DNA from: a virus | DNA length: 24,163 nt | Strand: one strand, 5' to 3' | IMG/VR virus record: IMGVR_UViG_3300021964_000521 | Coordinates: 1-24,163 of that record | In this document: positions 1 to 24,163 of the stretch, piece by piece | Layout: each line of letters starts with the position of its first letter | How positions within the stretch are numbered: position 1 is the first letter of the stretch | The notes under the pieces: model-generated | The model's database searches: none | What the model was told of the DNA's origin: nothing | The model's input: the letters and a program-made list of their open reading frames with translations, nothing else | Translations under genes and position numbers: made by a program

Positions 1-3000
1 TCCCAACATGACACACTTGATTTGGAATTGTTTGAAGCTTGAATATAGAACGTCATTAATTGTTGCCGCTCCCGCTGTTGCACCAGTTCCAGAACCACCC
101 GTTAGAGTAACAGTTGGTGCTGATACATAGTCTCTACCGCCATCAACGATATCAATACGTGTGACAGCACCGCCAGCGTCTACAACTGCAACTGCTCTTG
201 CACCTTTTCCTGGGTCTCCAGGTGCTGGAGTAATGATTACTTTTGGTTGTTCGGTACCGTAACCAGATCCTCCAGCAGAGAGTGCTATTGCTCCAATTCT
301 GCCGATGCTGTATTCAAAGACACCAGTGCTAGTATTAACTCCACGCGGGAAGTCATCAGCACCATCAAATTCTGGCAGTGTATAAACATACTCTTGTGAT
401 TCTGTGGTTGGCTTAAGTGGCGCACTTTCTACATCCAGTTTAGTCCAACGTATGTCAGAAGACATAGAGCTTAAATCGTCATCAAATGCTTTCAATTTAG
501 CATAAACTTCAACAGTATTTGTCAAGGGTTTTGTCATGGTTAGATAGACTTTTAAATCTTCTGCGTCTTGTCCATCTGCCAAGGTTACCTGTTGCGAGAT
601 CCATTTTGAATACGCCTCACCACCAGAAGCGGCGTCCTCGCCAGTAGAATCGTTATTGAGCCTATTGTGCGTTAAGAATAGTTCAAATAGAGCAAAGTCT
701 ACTCTAGGACTAACTGGAGTATAGTGAGTATCTAAATGTCTAAAAATAATTTTACCAGTAAAAGTTCTGTTGCCTTCAAAGTAAAGAAGTTCATTGCTTC
801 TAGAAGTAACGTTATATTCTTTTTGATACTCATAGATATAATCTGTGTCTTGATCAAAGAATGTTGTAGATACTGCGTTATTTGAAATCAGTTTATAATC
901 TGGATCGTACTCAGTAAATGCCAATTGCAAATCTACTGTGGTCGGTGCCTGTGTTGTCTTAACAAACTTGACCTGTGAAGCATTAACTAGTCTGTCTTCA
1001 ACTTCAGCAACATATCCATTTGTATTAGGCGAGCCAAAGTATCCGCTGGTACGCCCTACAATACTGCCACTTTGCAGTGATGTGATTGCAGAGAAGTCTA
1101 ATCTATCTACTTCTATCACAAGCGTGATGCTACCACCAAGTACCGTTGAGTCAATTTCAATGGTATCACCCACAGAATAACCAAGGCCTGGATTTACTAA
1201 AGTAACTGTTGCCTCACCAGCCGCATCGACGCTTATATCAAAAGTGGCTGTAATAGTAGGTGTAGAGCTATATGTGCCACCCGTTGCCGCTTGATTTGAA
1301 TAGGACGTTGAAAGCGTTCTAGTTGCGTCAGTACCACCACTAGATATTGAGTGTGACTTTATAGAAGATCTTTCAGCAACTCTAAAAGCAGTCCTCGGTG
1401 CGTTAACACCAGTAGCGTGGGTCTGAACACTGCGATCCAAAACAATATTGGCATTCAACAAATCGATACTGTCAACCACAGATTTAACACGATATGCAGT
1501 TGCTTGCGCGGCGGTGCTAGGACTACCCCCACTAAATGTAATTGTGGGATTACCCGTATAACCATAACCAGGGTTTGTTATTCGGATACTGTCTACTTCA
1601 CCCGAATTATTAATTGTAGCAACACCCGTTGCAGTTGAACCACTAGCTGGGGCACTAAACGTTATTGTTGGTGCAGAAGAATATCCAGCGCCAACGTTTG
1701 TTATTTCAACGTTCAATGCATCAAAGTCTTGACCAGCAAATAGTGCGCCCGAATAATTTGTTACCTTAACATAGTCTACTTCCTCACTATTAAAGGTAAT
1801 GGTTTGGTCACCCGTGGCGAATTGCGCGGTTTTTACGCGGAACATCAAGTCTTCTTTTTGAATCGCATTCCATGTAGTGTTGTTAGATGAAACAAATAAT
1901 GTTCCGCTAGAATTGACAGAAGAAATTCTTGAGTTTCTGGCAGTATCTCCAATCTCGGTCAAGTTATCTTCACCCAACTCCGCAATCCAAATTTCATATT
2001 CTTCGTTGTTGTCTTCTGGTAAGAAAACAAAACAATACTCTACGTTTGGCAAAAGATAAATTGGTCTTTCGAATGTAAAGGTATTTTCATATCCAGAGAA
2101 GGTAAAGTTTTCACCACTCGCTGGTGTTTTTCGCAACTCGCTTGCTGGTTTATATACACTACAAAGAACTGTTGGTGCGGGGTAGCCATTTACCATTGTA
2201 CGTAATTGACACGTCACACCTTTTGGACTTGCTCTTTCATCAATTTCTCTAAACCAAACATCAACAGATGTTACAAAAGATCCATGCTTTCTTGTGTCAG
2301 TAGAGTTCGAACTTACATCAGCACTGATTTGGAACCCCTGAGCAACTGGATCATAGAATTCAATTCTTGTTTGAGTGGATGTCTCCGTTCTTGGCACACC
2401 AACGGGATTATTTCTCGTCTCAGTAGCCTCTGGATCAACAGAAACAGTTGCGGTACCCTCTGTAATAGTTACATCAACCGCATCCGTGTTTATTGTAGTA
2501 GATGTAATGGTTGCAACACATCCAGTTGTTTCAAATTTTGTTCTATTGAATTCATCATCCGAAAACTTAAGTATGCTAACTCCCGTGTTAAAGCGATTAG
2601 CTGGAATTAGAAACACTACATCTAGATCACCACTACTGTCAGTAATTAGATCTTTTTTTACGTTTACATTAGTATTTGTGTAAAAAAGATGGTCAGAAGA
2701 TGATATGGTTGTTCTTGAAACTGACTCATCATCATAAAAAGCATATAAACGAGTGTCTGGTTTCATTCTCCGCAATTGACAGGTTATTGCTTTTTGTTGT
2801 TGGAAATCGTTAAACGAAATATCTTCAATTGCAGTGAAGTTTACACTACCACCAGTACCCGTGGTTGCTGAAAAAGTATTTCCCTGTCGTATCTGCGGTT
2901 GAACATCTTGAACAACATCAGTTCTTTCGCGAGTAAATTGTCGAACCGCGAAACCTGAACCTGGAATATTATTCGGGTCGGTAATCAAAGTCGGATCATT

Positions 3001-6000
3001 CAACCATGCTTGAACACGGGGATCATTCATAACCGCATTCATGTCTCTACTAATAAATCCAGTTGCCCCTGTTCGCTCCCAATTACCCCAAGATCCCTGT
3101 GATATAGTTTGAGTATAGGCATTACCGTTATTTTCCCAATCGCCCCAAACAGTTCCAAGATTGTTGGCAATTTGGGCAATGGCGGCGGCGTTCTGCTCAC
3201 CAAATGTTTGATTGATAGCCTGTCTCTGGGAATTAAGTCTTGAATTGTTAGTTCTTGGGGTTACCTCAAGTTTTCCAGAGTAATGGAACAACAACATACC
3301 AAGAAGATTTCTGGTCTTCGATGCCTGTAACTGCTCTAGATAAGTTACTTCTGTATATGACTTGGTATAGATTTTTGCAGAAGTGCCAGTACCAGCAACA
3401 GTACTTCCAACATCTGATATTTCTGGAGCAAATTTGTCTACAACGAAAAACGGTCTCATTGAAGATAATTCTGATTGTACAGCCGCCTTATAATCAAAGT
3501 TATTGATATCGGATCTAAAGTTATCATCAAAATCGTCAATAAAAATACCATTCTTAAAACGATCAACACCATCGGCATCTTTGACGTGCAATGATTCTGA
3601 TTGCTGTTCTAACAATGTCAAAGAAACATATTTCTCAAGTGCTTTAATTCTCGTATCTAAAGCACGAATATCTTTATATGTGAATCCTCTATTATCGGTG
3701 ATGAATATAGTGGTTGCTAAATCTTCTCTCCTAGAAAGTCTGGCTTCTTGAGGCGATAGAGTAGGATAGAATGAGAAACGTCCCTTTGCAATTTCCATTG
3801 TTCTCGGAGGAGTTGCTGGAATTTGTGGACGCAAACCAGAGTTTGACAAAATAACTGAATATTCATTTGAAGATGAATCAAAAACAAGTTTCCAAGCTTT
3901 TCTTAAATAGAAGCTATAATCACCGACAAAAAATTCCGTTGGCAAAGGAATGTGAATACCAGCACCTGGGTCTTCCATCTCTGCAACATTTAGCGGATTG
4001 ACATTATCCCCGTTTCCGCTGTCCCATGCATCTGATACAGTGGTTGCATCAGCCGCAACTGAAGTGTCAGTTAGCCTTGGCCTAAAATCAATACAGTTTC
4101 TTAGATCATACCTACCGCGAACATTTGAATAATAAATTGGCACGTCTTGTAATTGAAAGTCACCAGTTCCTACGGGATAGGAATCGACTGTAAAATAAGA
4201 GCCACTGGGGTTTGTTGCGCTATGTTCAAAGTAATTTAATGAAACAACCAGCTTGGCATAACCCGCAAACATAGTGGATGATACTGGTTCAATAGAGCAG
4301 TGGTTATAGTAAGAGTCTCTTTGACCATTATCAAAATAAAAATCTGACGTTCTTTCTTCGCCACCTACAACATCTAAATCAAAAGATGCATCAGCCAAGG
4401 CGTTCCATTCTTTTGTTGTAAAAGCGCGAATGGTAGAAAGAGAATAACCATCACTAAATCCCAGATTAAATGGGCCAGTAGTTCCGTTCGGGTGTGTTGT
4501 CATATCGATGATAACGTAGTTGTTTTCTGACAACGTTTTGGTTAGCGGATTAACACTGGTTTTCTTTACGGGTAGATATACAGTGACAGCACAAGAAGCT
4601 GGTATAAGCCCCAATAGATCTGAAGTTACTTTTCTAAAGGTATATGTCAACGTGCTTGTTGTTGCGGTGTAGCTAGCCAGATATGTATCATCAAGAGGAA
4701 TCGGTTGACCTGGATCAATTGCAACCATTGTACCACTAGAATTTTCCATGTAAACGGTGCTTGAATTTTCAGATATCATTACTTGTCGAGTATATCGGCT
4801 CGACGCACTAGTACCAGTGTCAAATTGTTCGTTTTGTGCGGTGTTGGCATTAAAAATAAGCGTAGGTGTTGGAGCACCAATAGTTGCATTATCTTTCTTT
4901 AGATAATAAAAATTATTACCAGTTACAGTATGAGTTTCAATTGCTTCTTCTGGTAGTGTCCAAAGAAGACTCTTATATGTTTGCTCTTTTAAGACTGCCG
5001 TTTCTGGAGTCCCATCATTATTCAAGTCTTCTAAAATTGTATCGGCAATGCCCTTTGCTGTTGTGTCTTGGTATACAATGGACTTAACATCAGCAAATTT
5101 GTTATTTGTTCCAAAAATGTTTATGTCATACAAATAAAGTTTGTATTGAGTATTTGAATCTGCCGCATTTCCAGAAAAATATTGTAGTGCTCTTGCTCTT
5201 GCCGTACCAATTAAATTTGAGGAAGATGTGGTGGTGCTACTATAAGTTCCACTTGTCGCAGATGTATATGCAGTGTCGTGTAGTTCTACCAGACCACCAG
5301 AAGCAAGAAGCCAATTACCAGCAAGCTCATTTACATATACAAAGCTACCAAATTCTGTGCTTAAACTATGGTTATCTACCTCAACAGTATCTTGTGGTTT
5401 ATCAACTTCGATACTAATCTTGTTTTGGTGTGGGAAAGACCTACCATTGGCAACAACTTTACCAGAAGTAATTTCCATCACAAGCTTATTGGCATCACCG
5501 CCATCTGCTAGTGTATATTTTCCACCATTAGTTCTGCTGTTATTTGCTAGGTGTTCTCTCCAGCTTGGTTTCGTACCAGAAACGATATAATCGCCAAGTG
5601 AATCTCTACGATATGTTGCTAGAATTTCACCAAAAGCCGCTAATGGATCTTCCCCGTAAACAGGAGTTGTTTCAACTAAATTTTCTTCTACTTTTACATA
5701 GCGAATAAAGTTGTCTGGCGCGGTGGCTCCAGAGGCATAAGAATCTAAGGTCACCTCTATCTTAAGACGGTCAGCACCTGGGGCATTAAAATTATATGTA
5801 CCAGAAGCTGGGTCTAATAAGCTCGCATCATCAGAGGATTTTACTATACTTTCTGTAATCAAAAAGCCAACATAGCGTTTTTGTAGTTCGCCGTGTAGTG
5901 TTGCAAAAGTACTGATCTTATCTGTAGTAACAAACTTTCCATCAATAAAAACAATACCAGGACTTAATTGAATTTCGTTTCCAAAACCATAATAGTAATT

Positions 6001-6552
6001 TTCTGGTGTCGATTCTGTACCTGTTGTATTGAGTGTTCGGAAAGTATCTCCTGCATTTGCACTAGCAACACCGTTTGCGTTTGTAGCTTCAACGGTAAGT
6101 ACTTCAGATGCGGCGAAGTGGGTTAGGTTGGCAGAGTTAGTTGCCCCACCCATTGAAATATATTTCAGGTAAAGAGTTTTTGTTAAGGGAGCAGAACTTG
6201 CAAGTCCGTCTCTTACGGCAAGAATCTGAGCACGAATTCCAGTGGTACCACCAGAGATAATGTCACCGATATAATCTTCCAAATTTTCTACTGTTGCAGA
6301 AGGAGATCCAGCATCAGTGTCATCAATTTTTATATAAGCAATATTACTAAAAGTTTCATCACAGCCAGAAATAATAGTTCCATCAACAAAAGTAAATGTG
6401 CTGAATTTATGAATCTGATCAGAAAGGATTGTTTGAAGCTGAGTAAGCTCCCTTGCTTGAACAGCATATCCAGGCTTGAACAGAATGCGAGCAAACTTTT
6501 TATCTACATCAAAATCATCATAGTACGGTGACGTGTTTAGATTGAGTGCCAT
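1..6552 (-). CDS. Giant virion structural protein, DUF4815 type (partial, C-terminus outside window)
   Basis: The frame is open from ATG at 6552 to the window edge, giving 2184 codons without a stop, so the true protein is longer. The N-terminus (MALNLNTSPYYDDFDVDKKF, then FKPGYAVQARELTQLQTILS) matches the opening of the DUF4815 structural proteins known from marine T4-like cyanophages. Near residue 1398 there is a FYDPVAQGF segment followed by a region on constraining virion-type beta domains, also typical of those proteins. Gly-Tyr repeat modules (for example ITNPGYGYTGNPTITFSGG) occur in the C-terminal third, encoded between about 60 and 1730. A Shine-Dalgarno-like TAGGAA lies 8 bases before the ATG and overlaps the gp8 stop codon. 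It is the last visible gene of the leftward unit, next to gp8, so a peripheral baseplate or fibre-attachment role is likely but inferred. Family assignment rests on recalled sequence similarity; molecular function is unknown. Confidence 0.85.
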   Translation of the reverse strand, partial: MALNLNTSPYYDDFDVDKKFARILFKPGYAVQARELTQLQTILSDQIHKFSTFTFVDGTIISGCDETFSNIAYIKIDDTDAGSPSATVENLEDYIGDIISGGTTGIRAQILAVRDGLASSAPLTKTLYLKYISMGGATNSANLTHFAASEVLTVEATNANGVASANAGDTFRTLNTTGTESTPENYYYGFGNEIQLSPGIVFIDGKFVTTDKISTFATLHGELQKRYVGFLITESIVKSSDDASLLDPASGTYNFNAPGADRLKIEVTLDSYASGATAPDNFIRYVKVEENLVETTPVYGEDPLAAFGEILATYRRDSLGDYIVSGTKPSWREHLANNSRTNGGKYTLADGGDANKLVMEITSGKVVANGRSFPHQNKISIEVDKPQDTVEVDNHSLSTEFGSFVYVNELAGNWLLASGGLVELHDTAYTSATSGTYSSTTTSSSNLIGTARARALQYFSGNAADSNTQYKLYLYDINIFGTNNKFADVKSIVYQDTTAKGIADTILEDLNNDGTPETAVLKEQTYKSLLWTLPEEAIETHTVTGNNFYYLKKDNATIGAPTPTLIFNANTAQNEQFDTGTSASSRYTRQVMISENSSTVYMENSSGTMVAIDPGQPIPLDDTYLASYTATTSTLTYTFRKVTSDLLGLIPASCAVTVYLPVKKTSVNPLTKTLSENNYVIIDMTTHPNGTTGPFNLGFSDGYSLSTIRAFTTKEWNALADASFDLDVVGGEERTSDFYFDNGQRDSYYNHCSIEPVSSTMFAGYAKLVVSLNYFEHSATNPSGSYFTVDSYPVGTGDFQLQDVPIYYSNVRGRYDLRNCIDFRPRLTDTSVAADATTVSDAWDSGNGDNVNPLNVAEMEDPGAGIHIPLPTEFFVGDYSFYLRKAWKLVFDSSSNEYSVILSNSGLRPQIPATPPRTMEIAKGRFSFYPTLSPQEARLSRREDLATTIFITDNRGFTYKDIRALDTRIKALEKYVSLTLLEQQSESLHVKDADGVDRFKNGIFIDDFDDNFRSDINNFDYKAAVQSELSSMRPFFVVDKFAPEISDVGSTVAGTGTSAKIYTKSYTEVTYLEQLQASKTRNLLGMLLFHYSGKLEVTPRTNNSRLNSQRQAINQTFGEQNAAAIAQIANNLGTVWGDWENNGNAYTQTISQGSWGNWERTGATGFISRDMNAVMNDPRVQAWLNDPTLITDPNNIPGSGFAVRQFTRERTDVVQDVQPQIRQGNTFSATTGTGGSVNFTAIEDISFNDFQQQKAITCQLRRMKPDTRLYAFYDDESVSRTTISSSDHLFYTNTNVNVKKDLITDSSGDLDVVFLIPANRFNTGVSILKFSDDEFNRTKFETTGCVATITSTTINTDAVDVTITEGTATVSVDPEATETRNNPVGVPRTETSTQTRIEFYDPVAQGFQISADVSSNSTDTRKHGSFVTSVDVWFREIDERASPKGVTCQLRTMVNGYPAPTVLCSVYKPASELRKTPASGENFTFSGYENTFTFERPIYLLPNVEYCFVFLPEDNNEEYEIWIAELGEDNLTEIGDTARNSRISSVNSSGTLFVSSNNTTWNAIQKEDLMFRVKTAQFATGDQTITFNSEEVDYVKVTNYSGALFAGQDFDALNVEITNVGAGYSSAPTITFSAPASGSTATGVATINNSGEVDSIRITNPGYGYTGNPTITFSGGSPSTAAQATAYRVKSVVDSIDLLNANIVLDRSVQTHATGVNAPRTAFRVAERSSIKSHSISSGGTDATRTLSTSYSNQAATGGTYSSTPTITATFDISVDAAGEATVTLVNPGLGYSVGDTIEIDSTVLGGSITLVIEVDRLDFSAITSLQSGSIVGRTSGYFGSPNTNGYVAEVEDRLVNASQVKFVKTTQAPTTVDLQLAFTEYDPDYKLISNNAVSTTFFDQDTDYIYEYQKEYNVTSRSNELLYFEGNRTFTGKIIFRHLDTHYTPVSPRVDFALFELFLTHNRLNNDSTGEDAASGGEAYSKWISQQVTLADGQDAEDLKVYLTMTKPLTNTVEVYAKLKAFDDDLSSMSSDIRWTKLDVESAPLKPTTESQEYVYTLPEFDGADDFPRGVNTSTGVFEYSIGRIGAIALSAGGSGYGTEQPKVIITPAPGDPGKGARAVAVVDAGGAVTRIDIVDGGRDYVSAPTVTLTGGSGTGATAGAATINDVLYSSFKQFQIKCVMLG

Positions 6553-6562
6553 CTATAAATTC

Positions 6563-8170
6563 CTAAAAATTAAATATTGCTTTAACAGTTTCGACCTGTT
6601 CTTCTGATCGAACAATATTAGTTCTATTTTCTAAGTATATAATTCTTCCAGAACCAGAGTCTATTTCTGGAGTTGTTAAGGTATTTATGCTGATCTCCGT
6701 AGCATCATTCGTAATCAAAACATTACTAACAGAAATTAAAGGTACGAGAGGAACAAGAAAAACATTGTTGTTATCGTCCACATAAGATACAATAAAACGT
6801 CCATTTGCATCCGTTGTTAATACATCGTCTGGGCTTAAAAGTGCCGCATCTGAGCTAGAAACATTTGCTATGTAACAGGATTGACCGCTAGTAGAAGTAA
6901 ACATTGCCTCAGATGGATCTACCAAATTTTTTATCAAAGCAATTTGTCTAAAATCATTTTCAAGCATAAAATCTGGATCTTCATCTCCATTCACTGAGCT
7001 AACGACTGCCAAATTTTTTGCGAAAAGTTCTCTTGGTGCATGACCACCATGACCATGTGGTGGGGATACAACTGCTCTAGCAACAGCGTTTGTACCAGGC
7101 CCAGTTAATTGATCAAAAGTAACTTCTGCAAAAGTATATCCAGTTCCTCTGTTTGTAATAGTGACACCAGTTATAGCGCCATTAAGAACATTTACAATTG
7201 CCGAACCAGTAGCACCAGTACCGTCTCCGCGAATATTAACGGTAACATCTCCCGTTACATAATCCTGTCCCGTGTTTGACATTACAATTCGATCAACAGT
7301 ACCAAGTGTGCTCGCCGCAGTCGCTTCTACTGCGGATTGAAGTGCGGGAGCCGTATCCAAACTTCCTAAAGTAGCCGTGGCAGTTGCTTGTGTTGGTACG
7401 GGATCACTAGGAGAGGCTTGTCCACCAGAAAAAGAAATAATGGCAAAACTGTAGCCAGAACCTGAGTTGGTTATCGTTACAGAGTCTACAGAGCCACCAG
7501 AAATTGTTGCAGTAGCAGTTGCTCCAGTTCCGTCACCAACAATAGTAACACTAGGCGCTTCAGTGTAATCAGAACCGCTAGTGTCAATTGTTATTGCATC
7601 AAGTTCACCATTAACATCAAATGCTGGGTCTCCAGTTACCTTTCTAACTGGAATATATTCACTGTCTAAAAATTTCGTTTCATCGGCGGCTTGAACTTGA
7701 AACATAAACTGCCAAGTATAACCATCTCCCAAATCAAATGGTGTTGTGCCAGTTGATGTTGGTTCTACGGTGCTTGGAGAATTGTTGTTATTATTCAAGC
7801 ACTTATAAACGTTTAAATTTGTAGTCATCACATAAAAATTAGCACTTGCTAGGTTATTAGCACCAGAGAATGCTCTATTATCTGATGAATAACCATTGTC
7901 ATATACATCGTATGTTGTACCAGATACCCAATCTATTCTTCTTGCCAAAAGACAAACATCGGTTGTATTAACTCTTTTAACGAACAACATATTTCTACGA
8001 AAATCTGCCATATACGAATCATTATCGATAGGCGTTTCTGGATTCTCTTCGTCTGCCCACGCGCTTACTTTACCAAAACCAAAGTAATAGTAATCGTAGA
8101 CATTCTGAATGTCACGAAACATTGATCGCGCTAGTTCTGTTCTAGCTGTCTCTCTTAATACAACCGACAT
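6563..8170 (-). CDS. 8: Baseplate wedge subunit gp8-like, with Gly-Tyr repeat insertion
   Basis: This 535-residue protein resembles T4 gp8 (334 residues) at both ends. The N-terminal part has NVYKCLNNNNN followed by DLGDGYTWQFMFQV (about residues 120-158), like the KCL...GDGYVWEYLFEI segment of T4 gp8. The C-terminus has NDFRQIALIKN (about 405-415) and ends GRIIYLENRTNIVRS...VKAIFNF, like the ENRPPI...NILFTF end of T4 gp8. Residues about 190-365 are an insertion built from Gly-Tyr repeats of the kind seen in the neighbouring giant protein and gp7-like protein, followed by a His-Gly run (HGHGGH, 372-377). In T4, gp8 sits with gp7 and gp10 in the baseplate wedge. The gene starts 4 bases after the upstream stop, with only a weak GGTAAG upstream, so translational coupling is likely. 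Assignment is confident; the insertion's role is unknown. Confidence 0.88.
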   Translation of the reverse strand: MSVVLRETARTELARSMFRDIQNVYDYYYFGFGKVSAWADEENPETPIDNDSYMADFRRNMLFVKRVNTTDVCLLARRIDWVSGTTYDVYDNGYSSDNRAFSGANNLASANFYVMTTNLNVYKCLNNNNNSPSTVEPTSTGTTPFDLGDGYTWQFMFQVQAADETKFLDSEYIPVRKVTGDPAFDVNGELDAITIDTSGSDYTEAPSVTIVGDGTGATATATISGGSVDSVTITNSGSGYSFAIISFSGGQASPSDPVPTQATATATLGSLDTAPALQSAVEATAASTLGTVDRIVMSNTGQDYVTGDVTVNIRGDGTGATGSAIVNVLNGAITGVTITNRGTGYTFAEVTFDQLTGPGTNAVARAVVSPPHGHGGHAPRELFAKNLAVVSSVNGDEDPDFMLENDFRQIALIKNLVDPSEAMFTSTSGQSCYIANVSSSDAALLSPDDVLTTDANGRFIVSYVDDNNNVFLVPLVPLISVSNVLITNDATEISINTLTTPEIDSGSGRIIYLENRTNIVRSEEQVETVKAIFNF

Positions 8171-8639: not shown

Positions 8640-11057
8640 TTAAAAAGTTGCACCACTACCAATAAAGATGTCGGCAAAATATGCACCCTCGACATAATCT
8701 TGACTCACAGCATTACCAGCATCAGAAGGGATAGCGGTGTCTGTAATTTGCGTGGACAATGAGAACGAAGTCGCCTCAGATGTCGTTGCAGTATCGTTTA
8801 AAGCTTTAGATGTATTTATAAAGTTAATTGACTCTGTTGCTAATTTATTTTCATTTATTGCCTTAGAAAGTAAAATATTGTTTATAGAGTCAGATGCTGT
8901 CTGATTTTCAGTTTGTGTCCCTTGATTAAAAGAAATTTCTTTTGCTTCAGAAGCATTAAAAGTGTCTTCAAAAACTAAATTTTTACCGATAAACAAATCA
9001 TCGGTAACAGTCACTGTTTCAGCAAATTGTGAAAACTCTGGTGCTTGTCTTACATAAGCGACAACTCTGCTGAAATCATCTGTCGCGGTTGAAGTATCAC
9101 TCCTTCCAGTGCTGAAGGATTTTACCAGAGATTCAGAAACTGTTACCGTTTCTGTTTTAACCAAATCTACAGTTAATGTTGGTATTGAAATTGATACACT
9201 TGATGTTTCAGTAAGAACCTTAAATGTATCAATGTGTGTTAGTGCGGTACTAAATTCATCACTAAAGATTGAAACACCGTCAGTAAGAATCTTGGTAACC
9301 AAAGTTCCTTTTGGTTCAACTCCAAAATTGCTAGCAAAATCAAGCTTTGTTTTCAGCGCAATATCACCGAAGAAAGCAATACCCGATGGGTGGATTGCTT
9401 CTTTTAATGCGTTGTCCCAAAGATTTTTTGACAGACCAGATTTTACAATGTATGAATATGCTTGATATCGATTGTTGTCCTGCAATACGTTTACATCTGA
9501 CAAAAATCCTTTTTGATTTAGGAAAACGCCAGGGGGATTGAAGAAATATGAAGTTGTCAGTGTGAAAGTAATAATTTCATTTAAAGGACTTGCTAAAGCA
9601 ACTTCTGTTGAGACGTTAAAGAAGTTAGAACCTGGGTTCAAAATTTCAAACGCGGTTGGTACACCCATAGAATCTACTGCGGAAACTTTGACAACCGCTT
9701 CGTTAACACCACCAATAAACACATAGTCTTCACCAAAATAATCCAAAGCATACCCAAGATTATCTGCGCCAGCCTCATTAACAACATATAATTGTCCAAC
9801 TTCAAAACCAACTTCAGAGGCAGAACCAGCGTATGTTATGTTGCTAATATTTGACAATACTCGTCCAACATATGCACAGCGCACACCATCTTCATGTGGA
9901 TCATCTACAGATAGCGTAATAAATGTCCTAATAGGATCGGTATTCAAAATAACTTCTGGATCTGTATACCCAGAGCCACCATCAACAATTACAATTTCAC
10001 TTATTTTTCCATCTTCTACACGTATTGAAAGCTCTGCTTCTGATGTTGGCGTGCCCGAATCTGTTATCACGTATGACGGTGCGGCAAGAAATTCTGCACC
10101 ACCATTTGTAATGGGAACAGAGGTAATCGCACCGCTTCCATCAAGAGTAGGAGTTCCGAATGTGTAGCCAGCACCTGGGCCAGGAACTGTGGTGTCTGTT
10201 TGATTTGAAAATTCAAATGAAATATCGTATGTGTTAGGAAAAAGATAAGCAATTTTAGAAACAGCAGTAACCACTGCTGGTATACTTTTCAAAAATGTAG
10301 CAGTACCAATAGTTTCATAGTAATTTAAGTTTATAAGTCTGCCTTCAAGTTTTAGTGGGTCTTGATCAGCATCTCCTTCAGTAACACGCAAGGTTTTAGA
10401 CTGTTGCCACTGTCCACCAGAAGCAATAAGAATTTTATCTTGCGGCTTTTCTATCTCAACGGTTTCTCCATAAACCGCTCTAAAGAAAGTTTTTATTGCC
10501 GCTTCTGTTCCTTTAGCTTCATAGATATCACGAATTCTGGAATAAAACAGTTCTTTATTTGTAGCTTCTATTCTTCGCGGAAAGTCTACCGCAGTTTGAT
10601 TAATCCACTGCTCTTGATATGTTCCAGTTAATCCCAAAAGTGGATGTAGCAACTCACTATATTGAGCATCCATATAGTCATAGTATGTTTCTAAGAATTT
10701 TATAAACTTTGGATAGTTTGTTTTAATATGTGCGGGTAAGCGCTCTTGTAAGAAAATCTTTTCTTTTGTTTGATAGGTTTCAACCGCTTGTGCGGCACTA
10801 TTAATTTGAACTGCAAGAACGGCACCAGAACCACCCCCACCAGAAACGGTTGCTGTTGGAGTAGTCTTATATCCATCACCTGGGTTTGTAATATAAACAG
10901 CAGTCACTCTTCCATTTGTTAAAGATGCTTCTGCCGTAGCGCCTGTCCCACCACCACCAGATATTGTTACTGTAGGAACAGTAGTATAATTACTGCCGCC
11001 ATTTGTGACAGTAATTTTTTCGACATAAAAAATATCTGTTGGTATATAATGAGCCAT
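8640..11057 (-). CDS. 7: Baseplate wedge protein gp7-like, shortened core with repeat modules
   Basis: This 805-residue protein lies between gp6 and gp8, where T4 has gp7 (1032 residues). Residues about 110-203 carry a gp7-type helical segment: NYPKFIKFLETYYDY, then IYEAKGTEAAIKTFFRAVYG and ETVEIE, comparable to the FYSTKGIEASYKFLFKVLYN and EEVEIE region near the T4 gp7 C-terminus. A second match is ALKEAIHPSGIAFFG (about 550-564), like the FVHPVGFGF segment. The large N-terminal region of T4 gp7 is absent and replaced by two Gly-Tyr repeats (residues 14-90); more repeats lie at about 296-370. Residues 644-780 form tandem repeats of about 19 residues, and the tail ends YVEGAYFADIFIG. In T4, gp7 organises the wedge. 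The start overlaps the gp6 stop as TAATG. The assignment combines synteny with recalled similarity. Confidence 0.75.
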   Translation of the reverse strand: MAHYIPTDIFYVEKITVTNGGSNYTTVPTVTISGGGGTGATAEASLTNGRVTAVYITNPGDGYKTTPTATVSGGGGSGAVLAVQINSAAQAVETYQTKEKIFLQERLPAHIKTNYPKFIKFLETYYDYMDAQYSELLHPLLGLTGTYQEQWINQTAVDFPRRIEATNKELFYSRIRDIYEAKGTEAAIKTFFRAVYGETVEIEKPQDKILIASGGQWQQSKTLRVTEGDADQDPLKLEGRLINLNYYETIGTATFLKSIPAVVTAVSKIAYLFPNTYDISFEFSNQTDTTVPGPGAGYTFGTPTLDGSGAITSVPITNGGAEFLAAPSYVITDSGTPTSEAELSIRVEDGKISEIVIVDGGSGYTDPEVILNTDPIRTFITLSVDDPHEDGVRCAYVGRVLSNISNITYAGSASEVGFEVGQLYVVNEAGADNLGYALDYFGEDYVFIGGVNEAVVKVSAVDSMGVPTAFEILNPGSNFFNVSTEVALASPLNEIITFTLTTSYFFNPPGVFLNQKGFLSDVNVLQDNNRYQAYSYIVKSGLSKNLWDNALKEAIHPSGIAFFGDIALKTKLDFASNFGVEPKGTLVTKILTDGVSIFSDEFSTALTHIDTFKVLTETSSVSISIPTLTVDLVKTETVTVSESLVKSFSTGRSDTSTATDDFSRVVAYVRQAPEFSQFAETVTVTDDLFIGKNLVFEDTFNASEAKEISFNQGTQTENQTASDSINNILLSKAINENKLATESINFINTSKALNDTATTSEATSFSLSTQITDTAIPSDAGNAVSQDYVEGAYFADIFIGSGATF
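8718..9128 (-). repeat. Tandem ~19-residue repeats at the C-terminus of the gp7-like protein
   Basis: Residues 644-780 of the gp7-like protein can be cut into units of 18-19 residues, with one longer unit of 26. The clearest consecutive units are INNILLSKAINENKLATES, INFINTSKALNDTATTSEA and TSFSLSTQITDTAIPSDA. Each ends in a Thr/Ser-Asp/Glu-rich turn, and the pattern is roughly xxxxxxSKAxNDxATxSEx. The nucleotide sequence is diverged, so this is an old protein repeat rather than a recent DNA duplication. The regular period suggests a repetitive beta or fibrous structure, which is inference. Confidence 0.65.
8813..8820 (-). promoter_or_regulatory. Possible internal late promoter element (TATAAATA)
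   Basis: An exact TATAAATA on the minus strand lies inside the gp7-like gene, about 185 bases before the 150-residue gene. It could start transcripts for the 150-residue protein, gp8 and the giant protein. It also simply encodes Ile-Asn-Thr in the repeat region, so chance is a real alternative. Confidence 0.25.
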
Positions 11058-21872: not shown

Positions 21873-22445
21873 ATGGAAAATATATTCGAATCTATTAGCC
21901 AAAAAGCTGGCGATACTGAGCGTTCGTATCAGTGGTATGTTGCGAACATTAAAAAGTTAGCTGGGAACATTCGTTCACCACAATCTGTGTACACATCAGA
22001 TCTTGGTGAGCTTACTGGTGTTTTGGAGCCAGGAAATTTGTACATGTATATGTACGATCCGAAATATAAAAAGAAACTGCCGTACTATGACACGTTTCCC
22101 CTGTGTTTTCCCTTTAAAGAAGATAGTAAAGGGTTTACTGGTTTAAACTTACACTACCTTCCACCGATGTTACGCGCACAGCTTTTTGGTAAATTGCTAG
22201 AATATACGGATAGCACAACACTGATGGAAGACACAAAGATTATGGCAAAATGGGAATTATTAGAAAACTATTCAAAATTTCCAGAGACAGTTCCAACTGT
22301 TAAAAAATATCTTTACAACAATGTAAAATCAAGATTTTTAAAAATTAATCCACTACATTGGAAGGCGTCACTATTTTTACCATTAGCAAACTTTGAGAAA
22401 GCTTCAAACCAACAAGTGTGGAGAGAATCAAGGGATATGCTATAA
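21873..22445 (+). CDS. Conserved T4-like phage protein of unknown function (190 aa), possibly packaging-related
   Basis: I chose ATG at 21873 because the longer frame from 21837 would run deep into gp4 and give an atypical N-terminus; from 21873 the protein reads MENIFESISQKAGDTERSYQ. Its core PGNLYMYMYDPKYKKKLPYY, then DTFPLCFPF and GFTGLNLHYLPPMLRAQLF (about residues 60-120), is a pattern I associate with a conserved protein of marine T4-like phages. The C-terminus NPLHWKASLFLPLANFEKAS fits the same family. T4 has gene 2 (DNA end protector) next to gene 4, so a gp2-like role is conceivable, but I cannot show similarity. The stop overlaps the next start as TAATG. Confidence 0.7.
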   Translation: MENIFESISQKAGDTERSYQWYVANIKKLAGNIRSPQSVYTSDLGELTGVLEPGNLYMYMYDPKYKKKLPYYDTFPLCFPFKEDSKGFTGLNLHYLPPMLRAQLFGKLLEYTDSTTLMEDTKIMAKWELLENYSKFPETVPTVKKYLYNNVKSRFLKINPLHWKASLFLPLANFEKASNQQVWRESRDML

Positions 22446-23098
22446 TGGGAATTTTAGATGATTTTCTAAACGGTTTCTTCGGCGGTTCTGGCGGTAATTC
22501 TGGAACCGTAGACACTGGAATTACTGGTAAAGGATCTGCACTAGATTCATTTATTTCAGCAGTAAGAACAAAAGACTTTCAAAGGACAGAAAGATTCCGC
22601 GTTGTTATATCTCCACCACCAGCATCTGGTGTTGATCTAAATGCAACTAAAGATGTAGCCTTAATGGTAGAGGAGTGTAATATACCTGGTCTAATTCTAC
22701 AGAATCGTGCCGTCAAATATAATAATAGAACCCAGTATCAACCAACAGCATTAGATTTTTTGGGTCAAGAAGCAACTTTTGTATTTTATTTGCAGTCCGA
22801 TTGGACACAGAGAAATATGATTGAAACTTGGATAAATTATTGCGTTGATCCAAAAACAAGAGAAGTTGGGTATAAGGATGACATCATCGGTGAGATTAAA
22901 ATATACCCAGTAAATAGAAAAGGCGAAGATGCAAAAAATCCCAATAATCAATCTATTTACTATACGCTTCATCGGGCATTTCCAAGATCGATTAGTGTAA
23001 TGCCGATGTCACAGGGAACCAGTGGTGTTGCTAGAACAACAGCAACGTTTACGTTTGATTCATGGTCATCAGATGTTATTGATGGCAGTAAAAAATAA
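22445..23098 (+). CDS. 19: Tail tube protein, gp19 family
   Basis: The start is placed at ATG 22445 (MGILDDFLNGFFGGSGG), coupled by TAATG to the upstream stop and with AAGGG about 10 bases before; a frame start at 22418 lies inside the upstream gene. The 217-residue protein has a Gly-rich N-terminus (about 10-30), then the tube-protein pattern: DFQRTERFRVVISPPP, ECNIPGLILQNRAVKYNN, TFVFYLQSDWTQRNMIETWI, and a C-terminal ATFTFDSWSSDV. T4 gp19 is 163 residues, so this one is longer at the N-terminus. Because it lies beside gp26 and apart from any sheath gene in this window, it may be a second tube-like paralogue acting at the baseplate end (a gp54-type initiator) rather than the main tube subunit. 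Confidence 0.78.
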   Translation: MGILDDFLNGFFGGSGGNSGTVDTGITGKGSALDSFISAVRTKDFQRTERFRVVISPPPASGVDLNATKDVALMVEECNIPGLILQNRAVKYNNRTQYQPTALDFLGQEATFVFYLQSDWTQRNMIETWINYCVDPKTREVGYKDDIIGEIKIYPVNRKGEDAKNPNNQSIYYTLHRAFPRSISVMPMSQGTSGVARTTATFTFDSWSSDVIDGSKK

Positions 23099-23115: not shown

Positions 23116-23805
23116 ATGCCGTTACCGCAAATTATGCACCCAACATTTGAAATTAAAGTTCCATCAACGGGTGAAAAATATACCGCAAGACCGTTTTTGG
23201 TAAAAGAAGAAAAAATATTAATTATGGCAAGTAGCTCAGATGATACCAGAGACATGATCAGAGCGTGTGTCCAAATTGTAACGAACTGTACATTTGGAGA
23301 ACTTGATGCATCGAAGCTGGCAATTTTTGATCTTCAGAAAGTTTTTCTAGAAATCAAATGCCAATCTTCTGGATCAAAACAAAACTTCACTTTGACTTGT
23401 GGTAACTGTGACGATAGTATTGACTACGAATTAGATCTGAGCACGTTGGAAATTAAAAATCTAGAGAACGCCAAAAATAACAAAGTTCAAGTGGATGATA
23501 ATATGGTGATCTTTTTGAAGTATCCATCATCAATGAATCTTGTTGATTATGACGATGATGAAAACATGTTAGTGGCATGTGGAATTGAAGAAATTTATTA
23601 CGGGGATGAAAGATATACTTTAGAAGAAGAAACTATAGGCGAGATTATTAACTTTATTGATAATCTTCCTGTTACCGCTCTTGATAAAATTAAAAAATAT
23701 TTCTTTAAATCACCATTTATGGAGCACATAGTCGAATACAAATGTAAGGGTTGCGACAAAGATAATATTGTCTCAATTAACGGGTACGAAAATTTTTTCG
23801 GTTAA
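23116..23805 (+). CDS. 26: Baseplate hub assembly protein gp26 (0-frame product)
   Basis: The 229-residue protein fits the T4 gp26 baseplate family (T4 gp26 is 208 residues). It starts MPLPQIMHPTFEIKVPSTGE and has RPFLVKEEKILIMASSS, two CxxC pairs (CGNC at 95-98, CKGC at 210-213) that could form a zinc ribbon, and a C-terminus IDNLPVTALDKIKKYFFKSP. T4 gp26 takes part in hub assembly. A GGAG ribosome binding site lies 8 bases before the ATG. The final codons contain a -1 slippery sequence leading into an open frame of 60 more codons, so part of the product may be longer. It directly precedes a possible tape-measure gene, the usual site of tail-assembly chaperone genes. Confidence 0.85.
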   Translation: MPLPQIMHPTFEIKVPSTGEKYTARPFLVKEEKILIMASSSDDTRDMIRACVQIVTNCTFGELDASKLAIFDLQKVFLEIKCQSSGSKQNFTLTCGNCDDSIDYELDLSTLEIKNLENAKNNKVQVDDNMVIFLKYPSSMNLVDYDDDENMLVACGIEEIYYGDERYTLEEETIGEIINFIDNLPVTALDKIKKYFFKSPFMEHIVEYKCKGCDKDNIVSINGYENFFG

Positions 23806-23978
23806 CTCTTTCTCAAGACACCTTGGAGAACTTTTTTAAAACAAATTTTCTACTTACACATGAACACAATTATAGCGTAGAGTCAGTAGAAGATATGATA
23901 CCTTGGGAAAGAGAAGTTATAGTAAACATGTTATTAACTCACCTAAAAAATAAGGCCGAGAGGAACAAACTAAGGTAA
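23781..23978 (+). CDS. Start-less -1 frame extension of gp26 (predicted frameshift product end)
   Basis: In the -1 frame relative to gp26, an open frame runs from the base after an in-frame stop at 23778-23780 to TAA at 23976-23978. It reads RLTLSQDTLENFFKTNF, then EHNYSVESVEDMIPWEREVI and VNMLLTHLKNKAE, a protein-like sequence with a helical, charged end. It has no plausible start: the first ATG (23895) would give only 27 residues, and no Shine-Dalgarno sequence precedes it or the TTG at 23823. Entry from gp26 by -1 frameshifting at 23790-23796 would give a 287-residue fusion (227 gp26 residues plus 60). The next gene starts 4 bases after its stop, so the region is used as coding space. Confidence 0.68.
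   Translation, partial: RVRKFFRLTLSQDTLENFFKTNFLLTHEHNYSVESVEDMIPWEREVIVNMLLTHLKNKAERNKLR
23790..23796 (+). other. Putative -1 ribosomal frameshift slippery heptamer (A AAT TTT)
   Basis: In the gp26 reading frame the codons are GAA AAT TTT TTC GGT TAA, so the heptamer A AAT TTT has the canonical X XXY YYZ form. It lies 9 codon-bases upstream of the gp26 stop region and within the only window (23781-23805) where both frames are open. Slippage replaces the last two gp26 residues by the extension. Confidence 0.65.
23810..23830 (+). promoter_or_regulatory. Possible hairpin downstream of the slippery site
   Basis: TTCTCAAG and CTTGGAGAA can pair as an eight-base-pair stem with one bulged G and an ACAC loop. 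The stem starts 13 bases after the heptamer, somewhat farther than the usual 5-9, so a stimulatory role is possible but not certain. A pseudoknot partner was not identified. Confidence 0.35.
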
Positions 23979-23982
23979 TAAA

Positions 23983-24163
23983 ATGGCAGAAGAAAATAAT
24001 AATAATGTAGGCGATATTGCTGGTTCAATCAAATCGGGTCTTACTCCAACCCGTGGTATGACTCGCACCAGCACAGCCACTGTTGCCAGCATGTCATCAT
24101 CGTTTTCTAATAAAATTGGCGAAAACAAAGAAAGTTTTGATGCACTCATATCATCAAACTCTC
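23983..24163 (+). CDS. N-terminus of a possible tail tape-measure protein (partial)
   Basis: The frame begins MAEENNNNVGDIAGSIKSGL and stays open to the window edge (60 codons). AAGG about 7 bases before the ATG is the ribosome binding site. The visible part is low-complexity, rich in Asn, Ser and Thr, with a following TRTSTATVASMSSSFSNKIG and no recognisable domain. Being directly downstream of gp26 and its frameshift-type extension, it occupies the position of tape-measure genes in many tailed phages. The sequence itself does not prove this; another hub or tail protein is equally possible. Confidence 0.45.
   Translation, partial: MAEENNNNVGDIAGSIKSGLTPTRGMTRTSTATVASMSSSFSNKIGENKESFDALISSNS

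Follow-up and report, generated by a model that had tools for sequence, protein, structure and literature searches.

The question raised by this locus is whether a T4-like gene 26 yields one protein or two, that is, whether an open frame that follows it in the -1 register is joined to it by a programmed ribosomal frameshift, as the initial annotation proposed. The window analysed here is the whole of a 24,163-base viral record, itself a fragment. In it gp26 lies at 23116–23805 on the + strand, directly downstream of a gp19-like tail tube protein (22445–23098, +; phrog_45, E = 3.6e-27), with an SD duplex of -6.4 kcal/mol before its ATG and a short form of 229 residues. Profile searches match it to PF12322, the T4 baseplate/hub assembly chaperone family, over residues 9–228 (E = 2e-46, 158.9 bits against a cut-off of 24.5) and to phrog_150 (E = 7.7e-51). 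With this full-length match above the curated cut-off it is a member of the T4-like gp26 family, and it is the only PF12322 match in the record.

The anatomy of the junction is as first described. gp26 closes with the codons AAT TTT TTC GGT TAA, preceded by GAA and with its stop at 23805; the open stretch of the -1 frame spans 23781–23978 (+ strand) and overlaps gp26 by 25 bases. Slippage on the heptamer T_TTT_TTC would bring the codons at 23799–23975 into use, with a stop at 23976–23978, and would join gp26 residues 1–228 to 59 further residues in a product of 287 residues, ENFF being followed by RLT at the junction. The extension fills the space up to the next gene (23983–24163, +, cut by the window end), four bases separating its end from the ATG at 23983.

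Two heptamers overlap within AAAATTTTTTC, namely A_AAT_TTT (23790–23796, +) and T_TTT_TTC (23793–23799, +). The first, named initially as the slip site, is present at the end of gp26 but is not conserved: the codon preceding the T run varies among relatives (AGT, TCT, GAT, GGT, GCT or AAT), and A_AAT_TTT is broken in nearly all of them, including a close relative of the window, L208, which reads GAA AGT TTT TTC. It was rejected. Loss of the heptamer in close relatives, which had been named as grounds for abandoning the proposal, is thus found for A_AAT_TTT, whereas T_TTT_TTC is kept in the window's closest relatives and is, from the alignments, most likely the site of the predicted slip.

Conservation was examined in about 200 loci from viral contigs and 21 from annotated phages, which gave 145 distinct gp26 genes, counted as distinct where they differ in the last 120 bases. 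All 145 carry NNT TTT TTC/T in register, no more than three codons from the stop, and have an open -1 frame; in several relatives this frame opens only from the slip codons onward, and all six T positions of the run are invariant. One of the locus searches used extension patterns, including one that spans the junction, and is possibly biased towards Phe-Phe codons; searches with gp26 patterns distant from the 3' end gave the same result for the site. Phe-Phe at the site is written TTT TTC in 141 of the 145 genes. Elsewhere in the same genes it is mostly TTC TTT (114 of 144, against 2 of 144 for TTT TTC), and the codon choice at the site is therefore not due to the protein. Serine preceding the pair is encoded by AGT or TCT in every case. 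As a measure of the chance background, the 1327 distinct ends of long ORFs in the loci retrieved were screened for T_TTT_TTY in the last seven codons together with a -1 frame that stays open 50 codons or more beyond the stop; the combination was found at 169 ends, and those listed from outside the first gp26 set were gp26 homologues at other loci. A similar site occurs in phages of Caulobacter, Stenotrophomonas, Xanthomonas, Delftia, Agrobacterium, Vibrio and Cronobacter, and, as TTT TTG, of Rhizobium. The alignment that the initial annotation recommended as a check speaks in its favour, with T_TTT_TTC as the conserved heptamer and with the codon constraint at the site, and the reading of gp26 as a tail chaperone with a putative -1 frameshift, conserved across well over 150 relatives, is strongly supported. 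The locus has the layout predicted for a frameshifted tail assembly chaperone of the G/GT type, a short form and a -1 extension joined at a conserved heptamer near the stop.

The extension, which was said to look like real protein, is recognisable as such: it matches phrog_634, the profile of gp51, in profile searches (E = 1e-21), matches the last 52 positions of phrog_150 (E = 1e-8), and can be aligned with the extensions of relatives. By homology, it is the C-terminal domain of the "baseplate hub assembly catalyst", gp51. The gp51 of T4, a protein of 249 residues, also belongs to PF12322 (E = 3.9e-52); it spans phrog_150 from 13 to 280 and matches the same profile as the window's extension, phrog_634, with E = 1.2e-23; the shared C-terminal domain includes ...YSLNSIMKMIPAER... 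in T4-type gp51 and ...YSVESVEDMIPWER... in the window. By these matches, T4 gp51 is a gp26 homologue carrying a C-terminal domain homologous to the extension. T4 makes its short and long forms from two genes, 26 and 51, on opposite strands, whereas the window holds a single locus able to give both; in the window phage and its marine relatives, both forms most likely come from this one locus by frameshifting. At the gene ends examined in T4, Aeromonas phage 31 and an RB43-type phage, all of which have two genes, no such site was found. In an unrooted tree of the gp26 domain one branch, with support 98/95, splits the frameshift genes from the two-gene sequences. We regard it as an even question whether the single frameshifted gp26-gp51 locus is ancestral, the unlinked genes of T4 having arisen from it inside the Straboviridae through a duplication and a fusion while vibriophage QD01 and the Nanhuvirus LPCS28 retained the frameshift. 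QD01 (L186:2965-3980) and Cronobacter phage LPCS28 (L188:2932-3842) are both listed in the Straboviridae and keep the frameshift arrangement; T4 and others there have two genes.

GenBank annotation of relatives offers a different account, in which gp51 is a separate small protein with its own start or with translation coupled to that of gp26. The examined cyanophage, pelagiphage and other annotated records do list a separate gp51 gene, and the start codon of the small ORF overlaps the gp26 stop in six phages that infect other hosts, for which reason coupled re-initiation of the downstream ORF is possible in those six. The window, however, has no usable start codon or SD for the extension, as had been claimed: among its first 30 codons the sole ATG, GTG or TTG is the TTG at 23823, where SD pairing amounts to -0.7 kcal/mol, and an independent start for gp51 in the window was rejected. 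The relatives of the window have no early start codon in the extension either, and across the wider set of relatives the first ATG of the extension lacks an SD (mean -0.6 kcal/mol, none of 143 at -5 or below). A separate start with a ribosome binding site in relatives, which would have counted against a frameshift, is therefore absent from the window's relatives, the overlapping start codons being those of the six other-host phages. Moreover, the annotated gp51 starts fall within the conserved domain, and a separate start leaves unexplained both the invariant T run and a -1 frame that is open up to it. We judge this account improbable for the window.

Slippage of RNA polymerase, rather than of the ribosome, on the T run would also give both forms, and a run of six Ts is present; the run is, however, six or seven long and in one fixed register relative to the codons, and bacterial transcriptional slippage usually requires longer runs, which makes this explanation less probable still. 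A relic, or a sequencing or assembly error in a once-fused gene, is hardly credible as the origin of the extension even though homopolymer runs are frequent sites of error, since the identical arrangement is found in close relatives, in all 145 genes and in the independent contig L005, a separate record 99.0% identical to the window over 4048 bases without gaps, whose identical slip site makes a single-base sequencing error unlikely.

We consider it highly probable, then, that, by a -1 slip on T_TTT_TTC, the locus gives a short and a long form of a T4-like chaperone for tail (baseplate hub/tape measure) assembly. We infer that slippage occurs, and the efficiency and molecular roles given here are conditional in the same way: most ribosomes would terminate at the gp26 stop at 23805, and a minority would slip back one base on the heptamer at 23793–23799, read the -1 frame to 23978 and release a gp26-gp51 protein of 287 residues. 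On the model of lambda G/GT, its gp26 moiety would attach to the tape measure or hub protein, and tube subunits would be brought in by the gp51 moiety. Lambda likewise has a short form and a -1 frameshifted long form adjoining the tape measure gene, here a probable one, although no sequence similarity was found, its slip site is another one and the relation in fold is only suggestive; by comparison, a predicted role of this type is well supported. The AlphaFold model of gp26 is confident (pLDDT 92.5), and a Foldseek search of it against the PDB gave 3FGX (probability 0.72) and 2OB9 (0.44), the only matches above 0.2 among those listed; both have E above 1, and nothing in this search was significant by E-value. 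The two structures are described as phage tail assembly chaperones (PMC9603447), and the modelled fold is suggestive of a relation to them. A fold search with the model of a T4-type gp51 (pLDDT 90.7) gave no useful match, neither of the 3FGX nor of the 2OB9 type, and a sequence search of solved structures gave nothing significant.

The gene at 23983 had been taken for a possible tape measure gene, and its position and relatives support this while its own sequence does not. In HTVC008M the gene at the corresponding position matches tape-measure PHROGs (E = 8e-12), and the one in Cr30 is annotated as a tape measure; in the window's own lineage the gene, complete in L005 with 786 residues, matches no tape-measure PHROG, its sole match being phrog_26249, of unknown function. 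By position it is likely a tape measure gene.

Elements that might stimulate frameshifting were also sought. The weak bulged hairpin of the initial annotation can be formed (23809–23829, +; -5.3 kcal/mol; 10 bases past the heptamer) but is not more stable than shuffled sequence (z of 0.33 and -0.69 for two stretches), and the region shows no excess stability against codon-preserving shuffles (z = -0.99). The window has no clear stimulatory structure and, by eye, no SD-like element upstream of the site. In the 145 genes taken together, the stretch of 63 bases past the site is more stably folded than its codon-preserving shuffles, with a mean z of -1.9 in which the relatedness of the sequences overstates their independence; RNAalifold predicted no consensus downstream structure in relatives, and a structure of 9 bp plus 4 bp was dropped as unsupported. 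Some covariation in a 5-bp stem is seen among 51 cyanophage-type sequences and not in the window. Many cyanophage-type relatives have a compact palindromic stem of the GGTCC-ATAT-GGACC type 11 bases after the heptamer (alignment columns 18-31; L154:3168-3181), with some paired changes, and this stem is a possible stimulator. Relatives also carry an SD-like stretch of the GGAGGGA type 8–15 bases upstream of the heptamer, over conserved Glu-Gly codons (L138). It is stronger than the start sites of those genes and averages -7.1 against -5.75 for codon shuffles, the relatedness of the sequences again overstating independence, and might possibly act as a stimulator in them. As an explanation for the window it was set aside: strong in cyanophage relatives, where the Glu-Gly codons mostly account for it, it is missing here.

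The initial annotation held that gp26 in this lineage is usually described only as a hub protein; it missed that T4-like gp26/gp51 chaperones were described by Vladimirov, Gautam and Davidson (2022, Virology 566:9), as cited in PMC10885494 and PMC12846349; going by these citations, a frameshifted T4-like gp26/gp51 chaperone is already published and the arrangement is known in related viruses. The family and its short and long forms are the same, in separate genes on opposite strands in T4 and in one locus here. Citing that work, PMC10885494 states that some T4-like phages have, in place of frameshifting, one short gene and one long, fused gene, and PMC12846349 mentions poly-T signals for frameshifting in the short-form chaperone genes of T4-like phages. 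An earlier account found G-T frameshifting widely conserved in long-tailed phages, T4 excepted (PMC5009743, 2016), and T4 gp51 is needed yet not in the particle (PMC3004832). Vandenendeviridae and Andersonviridae, families other than the window's, resemble it in a conserved GTTTTT motif that ends the short form and in a -1 extension; their downstream ORF is routinely annotated as separate, as in the window's relatives (PMC12846349).

What is new here is a member from a distant marine lineage, together with evidence of two-gene annotation in public records. The cyanophage and pelagiphage gp26 and 'gp51' (HTVC008M, S-PM2, S-H68) share the window's gene order, T_TTT_TTY site and -1 extension, but are annotated as two genes and are about 33% identical to the window's gp26. 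Cyanophage gp51 was reported as about 20% the length of other gp51 proteins, its first ~200 residues missing (PMC3037559, 2010), which the proposed frameshift explains. Our analysis points to gp26 itself, supplied by frameshifting, as the "missing" N-terminus of marine phage gp51, and for that reason a single chaperone is probably entered as two genes in many records of T4-like genomes. One chaperone family whose short-to-long ratio would be set in some phages by frameshifting and in others by two genes offers a clean comparison. In L001:4753-4890, L178:3750-3893 and L179:3762-3896 the GenBank gp51 starts lie 30–54 bases past the annotated or slip-site gp26 end, inside the conserved domain, and the conserved residues upstream are consequently missing from the annotated protein.

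Some further features were observed. The gp26 genes of contigs L167 and L059 are broken into two or three pieces in different frames, probably through indels introduced in assembly or sequencing. The window's gp26 (23116–23805) contains two pairs of the CxxC type, LTCGNC and YKCKGC, a feature shared with T4 and with vibrio and Xanthomonas phages; these pairs probably form a zinc ribbon and are lost in most cyanophage relatives. Finally, the neighbouring tail genes at 1–6552, 6563–8170 and 8640–11057 (- strand) have in common a glycine-rich repeat of the ITNxGxGYTxxPTxTxSGG type.
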